Shown: in pieces, positions 6,336 to 23,404 of the stretch
How the letters are laid out: each line of letters opens with the position of its first letter
How positions within the stretch are numbered: position 1 is the stretch's first letter
From: a virus
DNA length: 23,524 bases
Reading direction: 5' to 3' (one strand)
IMG/VR virus record: IMGVR_UViG_3300008625_000077
Span: 1 to 23,524 of that record
Program-made: the position numbers and the translations under genes
The notes under the pieces: model-generated
The model's database searches: none
What the model saw: only the letters and a program-made list of their open reading frames with translations
What the model was told of the DNA's origin: nothing

Positions 6336-6481
6336 ATTGTTATTACTATATAGAGAACTTTTTTAATTTTTCTAAACCCCATGCAAAATTGCCAATATGT
6401 CCAATAACCCAATAATATCCTTATATATCAATCACTTACGCATATTGGCACCCCTGTCGGTTATTGGCAACTGCCAATAAT
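6336..6481. repeat. 146-bp divergent-region element, copy A
   Basis: Aligns base for base in length with 20925-21070. The first 85 bp are nearly identical (shared blocks include ATTGTTATTACTATATAGAG, TCTAAACCCCATG and TGCCAATATGTCCAATAA). The last 20-plus bp are also identical, around the perfect dyad TTATTGGCA-AC-TGCCAATAA at 6461-6480, while the middle has diverged. It contains six copies of the hexamer CCAATA or its complement (starts 6392, 6401, 6409, 6443, 6462, 6474). Such an array suggests binding of a phage protein, as a replication iteron set or a transcription operator. It lies between the leftward head operon and the rightward early genes. Confidence 0.85.
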
Positions 6482-6563
6482 ATTGAGCCTTTTTGTAGGT
6501 AGCCAACTATTTTTATCCGTTAGCCTTTCCAAGTCCCCCTAGTTATTTTTACTAATGCTCTTA

Positions 6564-6655
6564 CCCTCGCGCGCCGGCCTGGGGGCCCCTGCCCGCCCGT
6601 CGTCGCACACTCGCACATGCCCGCCCGCCCCTGCGCCCGTGACCGGTCCCGCGGG
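6564..6655. other. GC-rich island with clustered palindromes
   Basis: About 90 bp of mostly G and C in an otherwise A+T-rich genome. It contains the palindromes GCCGGC (6573-6578), GGGGCCCC (6582-6589), GACCGGTC (6641-6648) and CCCGCGGG (6648-6655), and three copies of GCCCGCCC (6591, 6619, 6623). The plus strand is strongly C-rich. No coding frame is supported. Position upstream of the terminase genes makes a packaging or cleavage site possible, but this is inference. Confidence 0.6.
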
Positions 6656-6796
6656 TACATGCTACATTGCTTATGCCAGCCGAGCTAGGTCCGGGTTGCC
6701 GCGTCAAAGCCGAGAAGGAGAGTGATAGTATCAAGGCACGTTATAGCCGATGCCAGACAACTGCTGATTGTCGGAAAACAAATTGCAAAAAAAGTG

Positions 6797-6825
6797 TTTA
6801 CATTGTCGGTCAACCGATGTATAAT
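6797..6825 (+). promoter_or_regulatory. Rightward sigma-70 promoter P1 with operator-like dyad
   Basis: TTTACA at 6797-6802, a 17-bp spacer, and a consensus TATAAT at 6820-6825. The spacer contains the perfect dyad TCGGT-CA-ACCGA, which would place a bound regulator between the -35 and -10 boxes. Transcription would begin near 6832 and give a leader of about 140 nt before the first gene. It is very likely strong and recognised by host RNA polymerase. Confidence 0.85.
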
Positions 6826-6868
6826 AGCACTAACGGGTGAGAAATTGGATTGACAGTTTCAAGCTCGT

Positions 6869-6884
6869 GGCTCTTTAACAATTA
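6869..6884 (+). promoter_or_regulatory. rrn-type boxA antitermination site
   Basis: The sequence GGCTCTTTAACAATT matches the E. coli rRNA-operon boxA (TGCTCTTTAACA) at 11 of 12 positions. It lies about 40 nt into the leader of the transcript from the promoter at 6797-6825. BoxA RNA is bound by NusB-NusE and helps RNA polymerase read through terminators. A terminator lies downstream at 7322-7351, so antitermination could connect the two early units. The motif is seen directly; its function here is inferred. Confidence 0.6.
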
Positions 6885-6973
6885 GGTATGGTATTGATTT
6901 CAATGACATTGGAGGATGTTTCATTCTCTGATTGTTGAAGATTTTTAAACGTTCTAAGAAAGGAGAATTTATC

Positions 6974-7450: not shown

Positions 7451-7525
7451 AGACTATATGAGCGCAGACCACGGTCATACTTGACTAAGCCTGATTTGGT
7501 CACAGGCATATAAAGGAGAAACGCA

Positions 7526-7755: not shown

Positions 7756-7767
7756 TAGGAGAAACAA

Positions 7768-11541: not shown

Positions 11542-11962
11542 ATTCGTTTCTCCAGTATCGTCCTGCTTTCTTCCATAATTCTTGTCCTGATGAAGGATAG
11601 TCTTCAAGAAAAATGATGCGTGTACAGGAAGTATTCAACAGTAGTTTTGTGCATGTAATACAAGGTGCTGTTGTGCAATAGCACGTCTTAATTTCGTAGA
11701 CGTCTCTGCACTGTAATAAAGCATTCTGTTCTGCATGTATTGCTTCACATTCATTTAAAAAACTGCCCGAAGGCTTTTCAGCCCCCGGACAGGGTTCTTC
11801 TATGCAATGACTCATACCAGCAGCTCCGCCATTATAACCGGTAGCAAGAACATGGTGACGCCCGCTGACAAGGACACAACCAACTTGTCTTCTTGCACAA
11901 GTACCGCGTTTAGCTACTAGTTTAGCCATTTCAAGGAAGTAGGTATCGCGATCAATCCTCAC
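11492..11962 (-). CDS. dCMP deaminase
   Basis: The 156-aa enzyme converts dCMP to dUMP, feeding dTMP synthesis. The zinc-binding cytidine-deaminase motifs are clear: HAE at 76-78 (in IHAEQNALLQC) and PCITC with Cys101 and Cys104. An extra Cys/His cluster (SHCIEEPCPG, 51-60) is the second zinc or allosteric insertion typical of T4-type dCMP deaminases. GTG 11962 is the start, supported by GGAGG five bases upstream. The gene overlaps the hydroxymethylase-like gene by 11 bp and the polymerase by 50 bp, so all three are probably coupled. Confidence 0.9.
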   Translation of the reverse strand: MRIDRDTYFLEMAKLVAKRGTCARRQVGCVLVSGRHHVLATGYNGGAAGMSHCIEEPCPGAEKPSGSFLNECEAIHAEQNALLQCRDVYEIKTCYCTTAPCITCTKLLLNTSCTRIIFLEDYPSSGQELWKKAGRYWRNEYDREYLETTFGAAELI

Positions 11963-14651: not shown

Positions 14652-14671
14652 CGTTTCTCCTATAGTTAATG

Positions 14672-15949: not shown

Positions 15950-15984
15950 ATCGTTTCTCCTTTCTATAAATGGTTAATTGTCAT

Positions 15985-19047: not shown

Positions 19048-19064
19048 AAGTTCTCCTCAATAAA

Positions 19065-19938: not shown

Positions 19939-19953
19939 TTGTTTCTCCTTTCT

Positions 19954-20511
19954 TTACTTCTTGATAGAAGCTTTGTTTGAAATGTGGATACTAAATGTAT
20001 CCATTGGTATAGGCTCACCGGCCTCAATCTGCTCTTTAACAAACGCACGAAGTGTTTGCCAATGAACGGAATCTTTTTCGCTAAATGGAATATTCTCTTC
20101 AGACATGAGCTCTTTAACATGGTCAGCAGTATCTTCTTCACCGCGACCAAAATTCATTTTGATCTCACTTTTAATAAGATCGCCAAAGCCATTGTCTCGT
20201 AACCAGGAATAAGCTACATCAGCATTCTTTTTAGAAATAGCCGCATAATATTCTGTTGCTACAGAAATGGCAGAGCCATCTTCAAGAACAACTTTCTCTA
20301 AGCCAAGCTCACTCATAGCTTGGGGAAGAGCTTCATATTGTAGTCGATCTAATTCTTTCTTTTTATCTTTAAGCAACTGCTCAATATCTTCAATTTCTCT
20401 CACTGTAGCAGAAAGAGTTGCTGCGATATAAGAGACTAAACCTAAGTTCATCTCAGCAGCTGATTGATTTTTGGGTGCAGCGTCAGCTGCCATCATATCA
20501 GATAGATCCAT
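19954..20511 (-). CDS. Conserved phage protein with N-terminal coiled coil, 185 aa
   Basis: Residues 35-60 (VREIEDIEQLLKDKKKELDRLQ) form a likely coiled coil. The rest follows a pattern found in many phages: EALPQAMSELGLEKVVLEDGS, then YYAAISKKNADVAYSWLRDNGFGDLI, IKMNFGRGEED, and VHWQTLRAFVKEQIEAGEPIP. No function is known to me, but such genes lie near phage replication genes. ATG 20511 has AGGAGAAACA upstream and overlaps the preceding gene by 14 bp. It is the second gene of the leftward replication run. Confidence 0.75.
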   Translation of the reverse strand: MDLSDMMAADAAPKNQSAAEMNLGLVSYIAATLSATVREIEDIEQLLKDKKKELDRLQYEALPQAMSELGLEKVVLEDGSAISVATEYYAAISKKNADVAYSWLRDNGFGDLIKSEIKMNFGRGEEDTADHVKELMSEENIPFSEKDSVHWQTLRAFVKEQIEAGEPIPMDTFSIHISNKASIKK

Positions 20512-20839
20512 TGTTTCTCCTTATGTCAATAGTCGTAGGATAATAGTGCTTCAACTCTTTATCCCATTTTAATAGATTAACGTATCCCCCAGTTTTACTA
20601 GAAGCAATCATAGCCGCAGCGGCAATTGAACCAGGGTCTCCCATTAATAATAGATAATCCTTCACTGTAAACAAGTCTAAGCCTTCTTGTAAGACTTTTA
20701 TAACTTCATCATTATTGAAGGTAAACAAGTTACCATGAGGGAGTAGTACGCTGATGTTACCATATTCTGTTGCACTAAGAATGTTTCGCCCGCGTACTTC
20801 CTGCGTAACATAGACTGTAGGAACAGTTTTTTCTGTCAT
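20498..20839 (-). CDS. Conserved phage protein, 113 aa, first gene of the replication run
   Basis: A compact alpha/beta protein whose pattern recurs in phages: EYGNISVLLPHGN, FNNDEVIKVLQEGL, FTVKDYLLLMGDPGSIAAAAMIAS, VNLLKWDKELKHYYP and TIDIRR. The function is unknown to me; it is often found beside the neighbouring coiled-coil protein. ATG 20839 has AAAGGAG eight bases upstream, and a leftward promoter is only about 33 bp further upstream, so this is the promoter-proximal gene of the replication operon. Confidence 0.75.
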   Translation of the reverse strand: MTEKTVPTVYVTQEVRGRNILSATEYGNISVLLPHGNLFTFNNDEVIKVLQEGLDLFTVKDYLLLMGDPGSIAAAAMIASSKTGGYVNLLKWDKELKHYYPTTIDIRRNNGSI

Positions 20840-20924: not shown

Positions 20925-21070
20925 ATTGTTATTACTATATAGAGAAATTTTTTTATTTTTCTAAACCCCATGGAAAAATGCCAATATGTCCAATAATCCA
21001 ATAATACCCTTATATAGTAAGGACTTAGGGGTTATTGGGTGTTTATCGGTTATTGGCAACTGCCAATAAT
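20925..21070. repeat. 146-bp divergent-region element, copy B
   Basis: Second copy of the element at 6336-6481, same length and orientation. It keeps the ATTGTTATTACTATATAGAG start, the CTAAACCCCATG block, the CCAATA hexamer array and the terminal dyad TTATTGGCA-AC-TGCCAATAA at 21050-21069. The middle (about 21019-21043) differs from copy A. It fills nearly all of the gap between the leftward replication promoter (20872-20900) and the rightward helicase promoter (21082-21110). The remaining few dozen bases of the 306-bp gap hold only these promoters and leaders. Confidence 0.85.
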
Positions 21071-21081
21071 TTATTTCCAAG

Positions 21082-21110
21082 TTTACATATTTAATCCGCC
21101 GGCGTATAAT
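21082..21110 (+). promoter_or_regulatory. Rightward sigma-70 promoter of the SF2 helicase
   Basis: TTTACA at 21082-21087, 17-bp spacer, TATAAT at 21105-21110. The spacer lacks the ACCGA half-site but contains the palindrome CGCCGGCG. The -35 box lies 12 bp after the dyad of the 146-bp element, so a protein bound there could activate or block it. Confidence 0.8.
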
Positions 21111-21145: not shown

Positions 21146-22585
21146 ATGAAGTTCAAAACAACACCCTATGCCCACCAATTAGAAGCCTTCAACAGAAGCT
21201 GCGACCAACCAGCCTTTGCTTACTTCATGGAAATGGGCACAGGTAAATCAAAAGTTCTTATTGATAATATTGCATATTTATATTATAAATCAGAAATAAA
21301 TGCTGCCATCATCTTTGCTCCTAAGGGAGCATATAGGAACTGGACAAATATCGAACTAGGTAAGCACACGCCTGATGATATTACTATGACCTTTGCTTAC
21401 TGGACACCTAATCCTAAGAAAAACGAAAAAGATGCGTTGCTCTCTGTCCTTCAACAAGGTAGTGATACACTAAAGGTCCTTGTAATGAACACAGAAAGTC
21501 TGTCTACGACTAAAGGAACGAAGTTTGCTCAACAATTTTTAATGCGCCACCACACATTAATGGCGATAGATGAGTCAACGGGGATCAAAAATTATAAAGC
21601 AAAACGAACAAAAGCTGCTCTTAATATTGGTAGACGAGCAAAGTATCGACGTATTTTAACAGGTGAACCTGTTACCAAGAGTCCGTTAGATCTGTATAGT
21701 CAAATGGCTTTCCTCAATCCTAACATTATTGGTCATACCTCATTCTATTCTTTTCGAAATAGATATGCAATCTTAAAACAACGCTATACAAATGCAAGGA
21801 CATTCACAGAAGTAACAGGTTATAAAAATATTGAGGAATTACAAGCACGTATACAAATAGCCTCTTATCGCGTACGTAAAGAAACATGCTTAGATCTACC
21901 TCCAAAGATATATACTACTAGAGAAGTTGAGTTAACTGCTGAGCAAAAGAAAATCTACAAAGATCTTGTTAAACGCAGTCGAGCTGAACTAACAGAAAAA
22001 GGAAAGTTTGGTGTAGTGTCTACGCCTATGGTTATCACAAAGATATTACGACTACATCAGGTGGTTTGTGGCACATTAAAAGATGATAACGGGGAGTTAC
22101 ATAGTATAAATAGTAATAGAGTTAAGTCGCTTATGGAACTTCTGGAGGAAGTAGATGGAAACGTTATTATTTGGTGTAACTATATTGCTGACATTCACAA
22201 CATATCTAATGCTTTATCTAAGGAATACGGGCCAGAGTCTGTGGTCCCTTATTACGGAGCAGTTAGTTCTGATGATAGAGTTGAAGCTGTCGATAGGTTT
22301 CAATCAGGAGAAGCACAATTCTTCGTAGGTCAATCACGTACAGGAGGTTTTGGTCTAACCCTTACTAAGGCCACCACTGTTATATACTTCTCTAATAATT
22401 ATGATTTGGAAGTTAGACTACAATCAGAAGATCGTGCACATAGAATTGGCCAAGATGTTTCTGTTACATATGTCGATATGATTTCACCAGGAACAATTGA
22501 TGAGAAGATTATCCAAGCATTAAAAGCTAAGCGCAATCTATCAACAAAAGTTATGGGAGATGATTGGAGAGACTGGATAAAATAA
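21146..22585 (+). CDS. SF2 helicase, SNF2-like
   Basis: The 479-aa protein has the two RecA-like halves of SNF2-type superfamily 2 ATPases. The first half shows motif I GTGKS (31-35), the DEST box (142-145) in place of DEAH/DEGH, and the motif III region LTGEPV. The second half has FFVGQSRTGGFGLTLTKA (motif V) and RAHRIGQ (motif VI), the SNF2 signature end. It would translocate on DNA to remodel forks or displace bound proteins. The start has AAAGGAG seven bases upstream. It is the only rightward gene in this part and has its own promoter, opposite the other replication genes. Confidence 0.9.
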   Translation: MKFKTTPYAHQLEAFNRSCDQPAFAYFMEMGTGKSKVLIDNIAYLYYKSEINAAIIFAPKGAYRNWTNIELGKHTPDDITMTFAYWTPNPKKNEKDALLSVLQQGSDTLKVLVMNTESLSTTKGTKFAQQFLMRHHTLMAIDESTGIKNYKAKRTKAALNIGRRAKYRRILTGEPVTKSPLDLYSQMAFLNPNIIGHTSFYSFRNRYAILKQRYTNARTFTEVTGYKNIEELQARIQIASYRVRKETCLDLPPKIYTTREVELTAEQKKIYKDLVKRSRAELTEKGKFGVVSTPMVITKILRLHQVVCGTLKDDNGELHSINSNRVKSLMELLEEVDGNVIIWCNYIADIHNISNALSKEYGPESVVPYYGAVSSDDRVEAVDRFQSGEAQFFVGQSRTGGFGLTLTKATTVIYFSNNYDLEVRLQSEDRAHRIGQDVSVTYVDMISPGTIDEKIIQALKAKRNLSTKVMGDDWRDWIK

Positions 22586-22672
22586 AGCCTCGGAGTGACT
22601 AGTTCCGAGGCTTAAGATCCATCTTCGAGGAGAAACGCTCTTGAGGAGAGGACATTAGTAAGAAGAGTGGAT
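22576..22672 (-). ncRNA. Candidate small antisense RNA with anti-ribosome-binding-site seed
   Basis: A consensus minus-strand promoter (22679-22707) points at this stretch, which ends in a U-tailed hairpin (22585-22613), predicting an RNA of about 97 nt. Its middle contains GCGTTTCTCCT (complement of 22628-22638). This pairs fully with the leader AGGAGAAACGC of the small gene at 7526. It pairs over 9-10 bases with the leaders of the DUF932, methyltransferase, polymerase, helix-turn-helix, 257-aa and 185-aa genes. A second CTCCT follows the same logic at 22644-22648. Promoter, length, seed and terminator fit a trans-acting regulator of translation. It could instead be the remnant of a lost rightward gene's ribosome-binding site. 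Confidence 0.5.
22585..22613 (-). terminator. Intrinsic terminator, U-tail on minus strand, after the SF2 helicase gene
   Basis: AAGCCTCGGA (22585-22594) and TCCGAGGCTT (22604-22613) form a perfect 10-bp stem with a 9-base loop. On the minus strand the stem runs into TTTATTTTAT, a good U-tract; on the plus strand no T-run follows. It therefore stops leftward transcripts (the small RNA and any read-through from 22717-23524) and adds a 3' hairpin to the helicase mRNA. Confidence 0.8.
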
Positions 22673-22678
22673 AATTGT

Positions 22679-22707
22679 ATTATACCAAACGATATTATTA
22701 ATGTAAA
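22679..22707 (-). promoter_or_regulatory. Leftward sigma-70 promoter just upstream of a terminator
   Basis: On the minus strand TTTACA (22702-22707), exactly 17 bp, TATAAT (22679-22684), the same form as the strongest promoters in the window. It lies in the gap after the stop of the 51-aa gene. The only thing downstream before the terminator at 22585-22613 is the candidate small RNA. Confidence 0.8.
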
Positions 22708-22716
22708 CAGTATTGG

Positions 22717-22872
22717 CTAATTAACCCGATTAGTACAGTCACATGGCGGACATACCATCTGCTGTGGTATAGACATCATCTGTCTTGGCATATCCATCAT
22801 TTGAAAGAAAGCATAACTTGCTGTTGCTGTAATCATTCCAATGCCAAATACTATGGCGCATCTTTTATTCAT
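22717..22872 (-). CDS. Small membrane-anchored protein with Cys-rich tail, 51 aa
   Basis: The frame encodes a basic start (MNKRC), one hydrophobic segment (AIVFGIGMITATASYAFF, residues 6-23), a Met/Gln-rich stretch and a CPPCDC tail near the end. Topology suggests a signal-anchor with the tail outside the cytoplasm. It overlaps the upstream holin-like gene stop as ATGA (22869-22872), so it is probably translated by coupling. Possible roles include a spanin-like or lysis-accessory protein; there is no lipobox to support an outer-membrane spanin. Confidence 0.6.
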   Translation of the reverse strand: MNKRCAIVFGIGMITATASYAFFQMMDMPRQMMSIPQQMVCPPCDCTNRVN

Positions 22873-23297
22873 TTTCCCTTCGCTAATTGCGCTCCAAAGT
22901 AGAACTCAACAATCATTGTCGCCCACTTAAAGATCTCTTCATACTTAACCATAGCTTCTACTGTTATATAGGTTGTTGTCTCTGGTTCTTCTATCATCCC
23001 ATACAACCAGCTAGTGCCTTTCTCTACTACTGGGATAGCAACTTCAATACCAAATAGCCCTGCTAGTGGATATAAAGCTACCAAGCCAAGAATAGAAAAC
23101 ACCAACACTCTACGGTTAAGGGCAGCCATAGGGCTTTCCTTGTTTGCCTGTGCTCTAGCTTTTTCTAAAGCCTCATTATTAACCTGATTACCTTGTATAG
23201 CCAGCTTAAACGCTTCATGGTTTTGCTGTGATTTAATTGCAATCAGCTTAGCAATAAAGCCTAAAATAATAGGTATAACATTAGTCAGTAATGCCAT
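22869..23297 (-). CDS. Inner-membrane protein, holin-like candidate, 142 aa
   Basis: Three hydrophobic segments are visible: residues 4-21 (LTNVIPIILGFIAKLIAI), about 64-86 (RVLVFSILGLVALYPLAGLFG) and a C-terminal WATMIVEFYFGAQLAK. A charged helix with NHEAFKLAIQG lies between the first two. Small three-segment proteins ending F-FG---AKGK are common near phage lysis genes, so a holin role is possible. I chose ATG 23297, which overlaps the stop of the 35-aa gene by one base and has GAGGTGG upstream; GTG at 23300 is the alternative. Confidence 0.65.
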   Translation of the reverse strand: MALLTNVIPIILGFIAKLIAIKSQQNHEAFKLAIQGNQVNNEALEKARAQANKESPMAALNRRVLVFSILGLVALYPLAGLFGIEVAIPVVEKGTSWLYGMIEEPETTTYITVEAMVKYEEIFKWATMIVEFYFGAQLAKGK

Positions 23298-23404
23298 CAC
23301 TTAAACCACCTCTTAATGATATTCCAATAGTGTTTAAAACAGTTAGCAGGACATACCTCAACATACACCCCTCTAGCATTACGATACATCTTAGTCTTTT
23401 TCAT
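23297..23404 (-). CDS. Tiny basic protein, 35 aa
   Basis: Starts MKKTKMYRNARGVYVEVCP and ends with a basic aromatic tail (YWNIIKRWFK). It is preceded by GGGGGAG six bases before ATG 23404, one of the best ribosome-binding sites in the window, and its TGA overlaps the next ATG. Coupling and site strength support a real gene despite the length. Function unknown. Confidence 0.55.
   Translation of the reverse strand: MKKTKMYRNARGVYVEVCPANCFKHYWNIIKRWFK

Follow-up and report, generated by a model that had tools for sequence, protein, structure and literature searches.

The locus and its neighbourhood

The 23,524-nucleotide stretch of DNA analysed here (the window) covers part of the genome of an uncultured podovirus, and its source is probably a marine phage. 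Sequence comparison shows that its portal is similar to that of HTVC010P-type Pelagibacter phages, and its replication genes are similar to those of the spring-water phage ct3Et533 (primase 47% at the amino acid level) and of DSL-LC04, which has a gammaproteobacterial host. A sister contig of 34,939 bp is near-identical to the window (99.87% identity over the 14.6 kb compared). Near its right end the window holds the features listed below, among them a probable small-RNA gene on the minus strand, so judged from the sequence.

21082..21110, plus strand: promoter of the GTTTACAT-N16-TATAAT set, preceding the convergent helicase gene
21146-22585, plus strand: helicase gene, convergent with the RNA unit, with its own promoter at 21082..21110
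22578..22672, minus strand: predicted small RNA of about 95 nt, start placed 7 nt after the -10 and end taken from the U tail
22585..22613, minus strand: terminator hairpin, stem AAGCCUCGGA/UCCGAGGCUU, ten pairs, U tail to about 22578
22617..22672, minus strand: predicted 5' domain, an AUCCA/UGGAU plus UCUUC/GAAGA helix closing on two open CU-rich stretches
22628..22638, minus strand: anti-Shine-Dalgarno motif B, GCGUUUCUCCU, with UCUCCU lying in an open internal loop; complementary to AGGAGAAACGC
22641..22649, minus strand: anti-Shine-Dalgarno motif A, UCUCCUCAA, which overlaps the open CCUCA hairpin loop; complementary to TTGAGGAGA ahead of gene 19047
22679..22707, minus strand: promoter, TTTACA-17 bp-TATAAT, 11/12 consensus bases, TG-extended -10
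22717..22872, minus strand: small ORF, putatively the last gene of the late operon, with the RNA unit directly 3' of it

In ct3Et533 the helicase gene is convergent with the end of the structural operon. This synteny suggests that the late operon ends with the minus-strand genes at 22717-23300 and that the candidate RNA unit is their 3' neighbour.

The 14.6-kb comparison with the sister contig shows differences in three clusters only (21151-21238, 21989-22402 and 22747-22795), which have the appearance of patchy recombination between strains; they include a 3-bp insertion in the 22717-22872 gene. Both sequences stop at exactly the same base, 23524 of the window, which may mark a genome terminus or a circularisation repeat and not a break made at random in assembly. 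Elsewhere, 6336-6481 and 20925-21070 each hold a 103-nt repeat (90% identical) and, after it, a 25-nt perfect repeat, TCGGTTATTGGCAACTGCCAATAAT, in the same orientation and 14,589 bp apart. Both copies lie upstream of an early-class promoter; a replication origin or a shared control region is possible. The long leader that follows the promoter at 6797 contains GGCTCTTTAACAATTAGG (6865-6890), a sequence similar to ribosomal boxA (TGCTCTTTAACA), an antitermination signal; two more GCTCTTTAACA matches, at 20031 and 20109, are antisense within coding sequence. Finally, a very G+C-rich island (cgcgcgccggcctgggggcccc...) occupies 6555-6660, in an A+T-leaning intergenic stretch before the early promoters.

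Promoter, terminator and predicted RNA

A first-pass annotation of this DNA had described a perfect minus-strand promoter at 22679-22707, a short distance from a U-tailed hairpin at 22585-22613, with no real gene between them. The promoter is present at that position with the 17-bp spacing, but it is not perfect, as it matches 11 of the 12 consensus bases. The hairpin was found: its stem has ten pairs, and on the minus strand it is followed by a U-rich tail. The only reading frame between the two elements is one of 18 codons without a Shine-Dalgarno sequence. The TTTACA of this promoter has a G before it and a T after it, like the other promoters of the phage (GTTTACAT). We searched the 35-kb sister contig for the pattern GTTTACAT-N14-18-TATAAT, using the reversed pattern as a control, and found exactly four copies, all with N16, and none of the control. 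In window coordinates these are 6797 and 7422 (early genes), 21082 (helicase) and the promoter of the candidate RNA unit; the other three stand a short way upstream of phage genes, in sense orientation. With four copies against none in the control, a chance origin of the 22707-22679 promoter is unlikely, and the sequence supports its membership in a phage-specific promoter set.

The promoter lies 94 bp ahead of the end of the hairpin (22613-22585). The hairpin is common to the convergent helicase transcript, and its U tail is clearly better on the minus strand. A scan for promoters with at least 10 of 12 consensus bases followed by a strong terminator within 180 bp returned the candidate as the only strong promoter-terminator unit in the window. 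In 100 shuffles, scored with a slightly different unit definition, the 11/12 stringency gave no unit and the 10/12 stringency 0.01 units on average, and none was found by the scan in eleven loci from related phages. At the sequence level the unit has what is expected of an independently transcribed, trans-acting sRNA gene, namely its own promoter, an intrinsic terminator and no plausible translated ORF, and its transcription is likely.

The fold predicted for the RNA has an energy of -28 kcal/mol (z -4.0), much of it due to the terminator; the fold of the 5' domain alone is marginal, weakly better than shuffles (z -1.9). In the predicted ensemble CCUCA and UCUCCUC are about 90% unpaired, while in motif B the GCGUU stretch is partly base-paired and would need opening.

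Searches of viral contigs with exact-hairpin, two-motif and motif-plus-hairpin patterns found the unit only in the near-identical contig, whose clustered substitutions include none that is informative for the RNA element; relatives of intermediate identity did not turn up. Distant blastn searches against phages gave short matches only (E 0.4-5). In helicase relatives of about 50% amino acid identity the locus is absent: on reading the stretches after the helicase we saw no comparable unit, and the next gene mostly begins a short distance past the helicase stop. In ct3Et533 there is no room for it. At the loci found via the 22869-23300 protein, other genes stand at the place of the unit. An Rfam scan of the window gave no match at the gathering threshold. 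The two-motif pattern had 38 hits in bacterial genomes, which look like chance, since none of the 37 examined carried a promoter-terminator unit and most lay in open reading frames.

Complementarity to phage ribosome-binding sites

The RBSs of this phage are often AAAGGAGAAACNATATG. The core AGGAGAAAC occurs seven times in the window; six copies are real RBSs (7514 and 7757 on the plus strand; 14661, 15961, 19949 and 20521 on the minus strand) and the seventh is antisense to the candidate RNA. The longer form AGGAGAAACGC is found in the window at 7514 and 22628 only. Motif B matches the RBS core and motif A matches the leader of the primase gene, so that two separate motifs fit two different RBS forms. 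The complementary leaders are the following.

7514..7524, plus strand: RBS of gene 7526, 11-nt perfect complement of motif B
7757..7765, plus strand: RBS of gene 7768, 9-nt complement
11545..11553, minus strand: RBS of the DNA polymerase gene, if its start is 11541, 9-nt complement GGAGAAACG
14652..14661, minus strand: RBS of gene 14651, 10-nt complement
15952..15961, minus strand: RBS of gene 15949, 10-nt complement
19052..19060, minus strand: RBS of gene 19047 (primase), 9-nt complement of motif A
19941..19949, minus strand: RBS of gene 19938, 9-nt complement
20513..20521, minus strand: RBS of gene 20511, 9-nt complement

The exact 11-nt complement to the leader of gene 7526, and the pairing over 9-10 nt with the leaders of 15949, 14651, 11541, 7768, 19938 and 20511, had both been proposed in the first-pass annotation and agree with our results; the leader of 19047, which pairs over 9 nt with the second motif (22649-22641), had been absent from it. 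With gene starts picked by eye from the ORF list, which makes the leader counts uncertain, perfect pairing of at least 9 nt was found in 8 of 22 early/middle leaders vs none of 18 late ones, eight of these taken from the sister contig (Fisher p 0.005). The same threshold is reached by 0/52 leaders of ct3Et533, 2/41 of DSL-LC04 and 0/47 of E. coli (one genome region; E. coli may not be the host).

We then compared these eight leaders with shuffled versions of the RNA; attention to the motif and to the 9-nt threshold came only after the first-pass annotation had flagged them. Dinucleotide shuffles matched a mean of 0.41 leaders and none of 500 reached eight; when both CTCCT motifs were held fixed the mean was 0.89 and 1.6% of shuffles reached eight, so the count lies beyond chance. 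The single 11-nt match is weaker when taken alone (p 0.024 with dinucleotide shuffles; p 0.064 when CTCCT is held fixed). Summed duplex energies were no better than those of CTCCT-fixed shuffles (p 0.26), and early and late leaders showed no difference in duplex energy (p 0.18); total duplex energy was dropped as evidence because any CTCCT-bearing RNA does nearly as well. The leader counts indicate a match that exceeds a generic anti-Shine-Dalgarno sequence in length and specificity, though not in summed duplex energy, and they support a long complementarity that would be specific to the early/middle RBS class of this phage and not to RBSs generally.

A candidate RNA against early ribosome-binding sites

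The promoter, the terminator, the motifs and the specificity of the complementarity are present in the sequence, and from them we infer transcription, pairing in the cell, repression and its timing as follows. The sRNA gene would lie between the putative last late-operon gene and the terminator that also serves the convergent helicase gene. From the early-class phage promoter, transcription by host RNA polymerase would begin near 22672 and end at the U-tailed hairpin, producing an RNA of about 95 nt with two largely unpaired anti-Shine-Dalgarno stretches. These could pair with the AGGAGAAAC of the early and DNA-replication gene set and with the TTGAGGAGA of the primase gene, blocking ribosome binding at the target leaders; late genes would be spared because their RBSs lack the AGGAGAAAC core. 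Read-through from the late operon could supply extra copies of the RNA sequence as infection proceeds. A phage sRNA gene whose RNA masks early and replication RBSs is the best explanation of the locus as a whole, and we hold it at slightly under an even chance; masking of the phage's own early RBSs, considered by itself, is a shade more tentative.

The first-pass annotation had named as its rival a vestigial rightward RBS, and we judge it possible though unlikely that AGGAGAAACGC at 22628 on the plus strand is the RBS of a gene lost from after the helicase. A short minus-strand RNA could still exist in that case, its complementarity being a by-product of the common RBS consensus, and the complementarity predicted is identical. 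In nine other contigs TTTCTCCT stands beside a GCCTCGG/CCGAGGC hairpin, mostly as the RBS, with ATG, of an opposite-strand gene, and DSL-LC04 and 023Pt_psg01 carry a same-direction gene right after the helicase. At 22628, however, there is no ATG at the usual distance, the only start being that of a five-codon TTG frame; a pair of RBS relics, 16 nt apart, would be needed; and a terminator lies between the site and the helicase, with a strong opposing promoter just beyond. The missing ATG, the two RBS-like sequences 16 nt apart and the opposing promoter favour the sRNA, though not strongly. It is improbable, in turn, that the hairpin merely ends two convergent operons and that no dedicated RNA is made, the promoter match being due to chance or inactive. 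Promoter-like matches near the site are in total at chance level, and a terminator also closes the equivalent region of ct3Et533, but this promoter combines its 11/12 match and 17-bp spacing with the GTTTACAT form common to three others.

An RNA directed at the host, made early to mask host Shine-Dalgarno sequences and so aid the shut-off of host translation, has a similarly low probability. It would recall ncS27 of Burkholderia, a double-hairpin RNA of family RF02278 with RBS-complementary CU-rich stretches, which attenuates growth when overexpressed (PMC5688073), and RF02278 is the best, if sub-threshold, Rfam match of the candidate. Yet pairing with the canonical AAGGAGGU has a 5-nt perfect core and -10 to -11 kcal/mol, whereas the phage RBS core pairs better, over 10-11 nt and at -16 to -20 kcal/mol, and the E. 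coli leaders counted above also speak against it, with the same reservation about the host. Still less probable is that the transcript serves as a short mRNA encoding an 18-residue peptide (MSSPQERFSSKMDLKPRN), or as a leader with no regulatory role: the ATG-started frame does lie within the RNA, ending in the loop of the terminator, but no Shine-Dalgarno sequence precedes its ATG (CUCUUCUUACUAAUG) in a phage with strong RBSs.

Returning to a phage sRNA that masks early RBSs, one RBS core for the early and replication class plus one complementary sRNA at the end of the late operon might form a translational early-to-late switch. We consider this doubtful; the promoter of the unit is of the early class and is not an obvious fit with a late switch. 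If true, a single RNA would silence a whole class and leave late genes untouched, in a switch built on the choice of RBS, while phage gene timing is usually put down to transcription (new polymerases, sigma factors, antiterminators). RBS sequence would then be a regulatory address, with one RNA reading many unlinked genes together, and similar RNAs could be sought as orphan promoter-terminator units whose transcript fits the phage's own RBS core better than the canonical Shine-Dalgarno.

Small phage antisense RNAs that pair at phage ribosome-binding regions are represented by c4 RNA of phages P1 and P7 (RF01695) and sar RNA of P22. Those have one neighbouring or overlapping target and serve temperate immunity control, whereas the candidate would have many unlinked targets; the c4 model gave no match at gathering in the window and none at E<=10 in 22560-22760. 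The NfeR1-type anti-Shine-Dalgarno sRNAs of alpha-proteobacteria ('cuckoo' RNAs) carry repeated loop motifs (CCUCCUCCC, for the canonical Shine-Dalgarno) and a terminator hairpin, and have many targets; the candidate differs in having CUCCUC plus an extension for AAACG. VpdS and PreS (lambda) are likewise phage-encoded trans-acting sRNAs, but they are Hfq-dependent, have particular targets and are not directed at a common phage RBS core. VpdS, of phage VP882, alters phage and host mRNA levels, and VpdS, PreS and OOP have other targets (review PMC12197685). In a small literature search we found no phage RNA fitted to the phage's own common RBS core.

In mode of action the candidate would resemble most the Burkholderia double-hairpin or 'toxic small RNAs' (RF02278; ncS03/05/27/62), of 57-92 nt, which combine a terminator hairpin with unpaired CU-rich stretches complementary to RBSs (UCUCCUC in the model). 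The candidate likewise has its CU-rich anti-RBS stretch unpaired ahead of the terminator hairpin (probability about 0.9). Its score against the RF02278 covariance model is 19.6 bits (E 0.064), far below the gathering value of 50, and since the match is sub-threshold we do not claim membership. RF02278 is a cellular beta-proteobacterial family of conserved sequence, whereas the candidate would be a phage RNA fitted to the AGGAGAAAC core of the phage.
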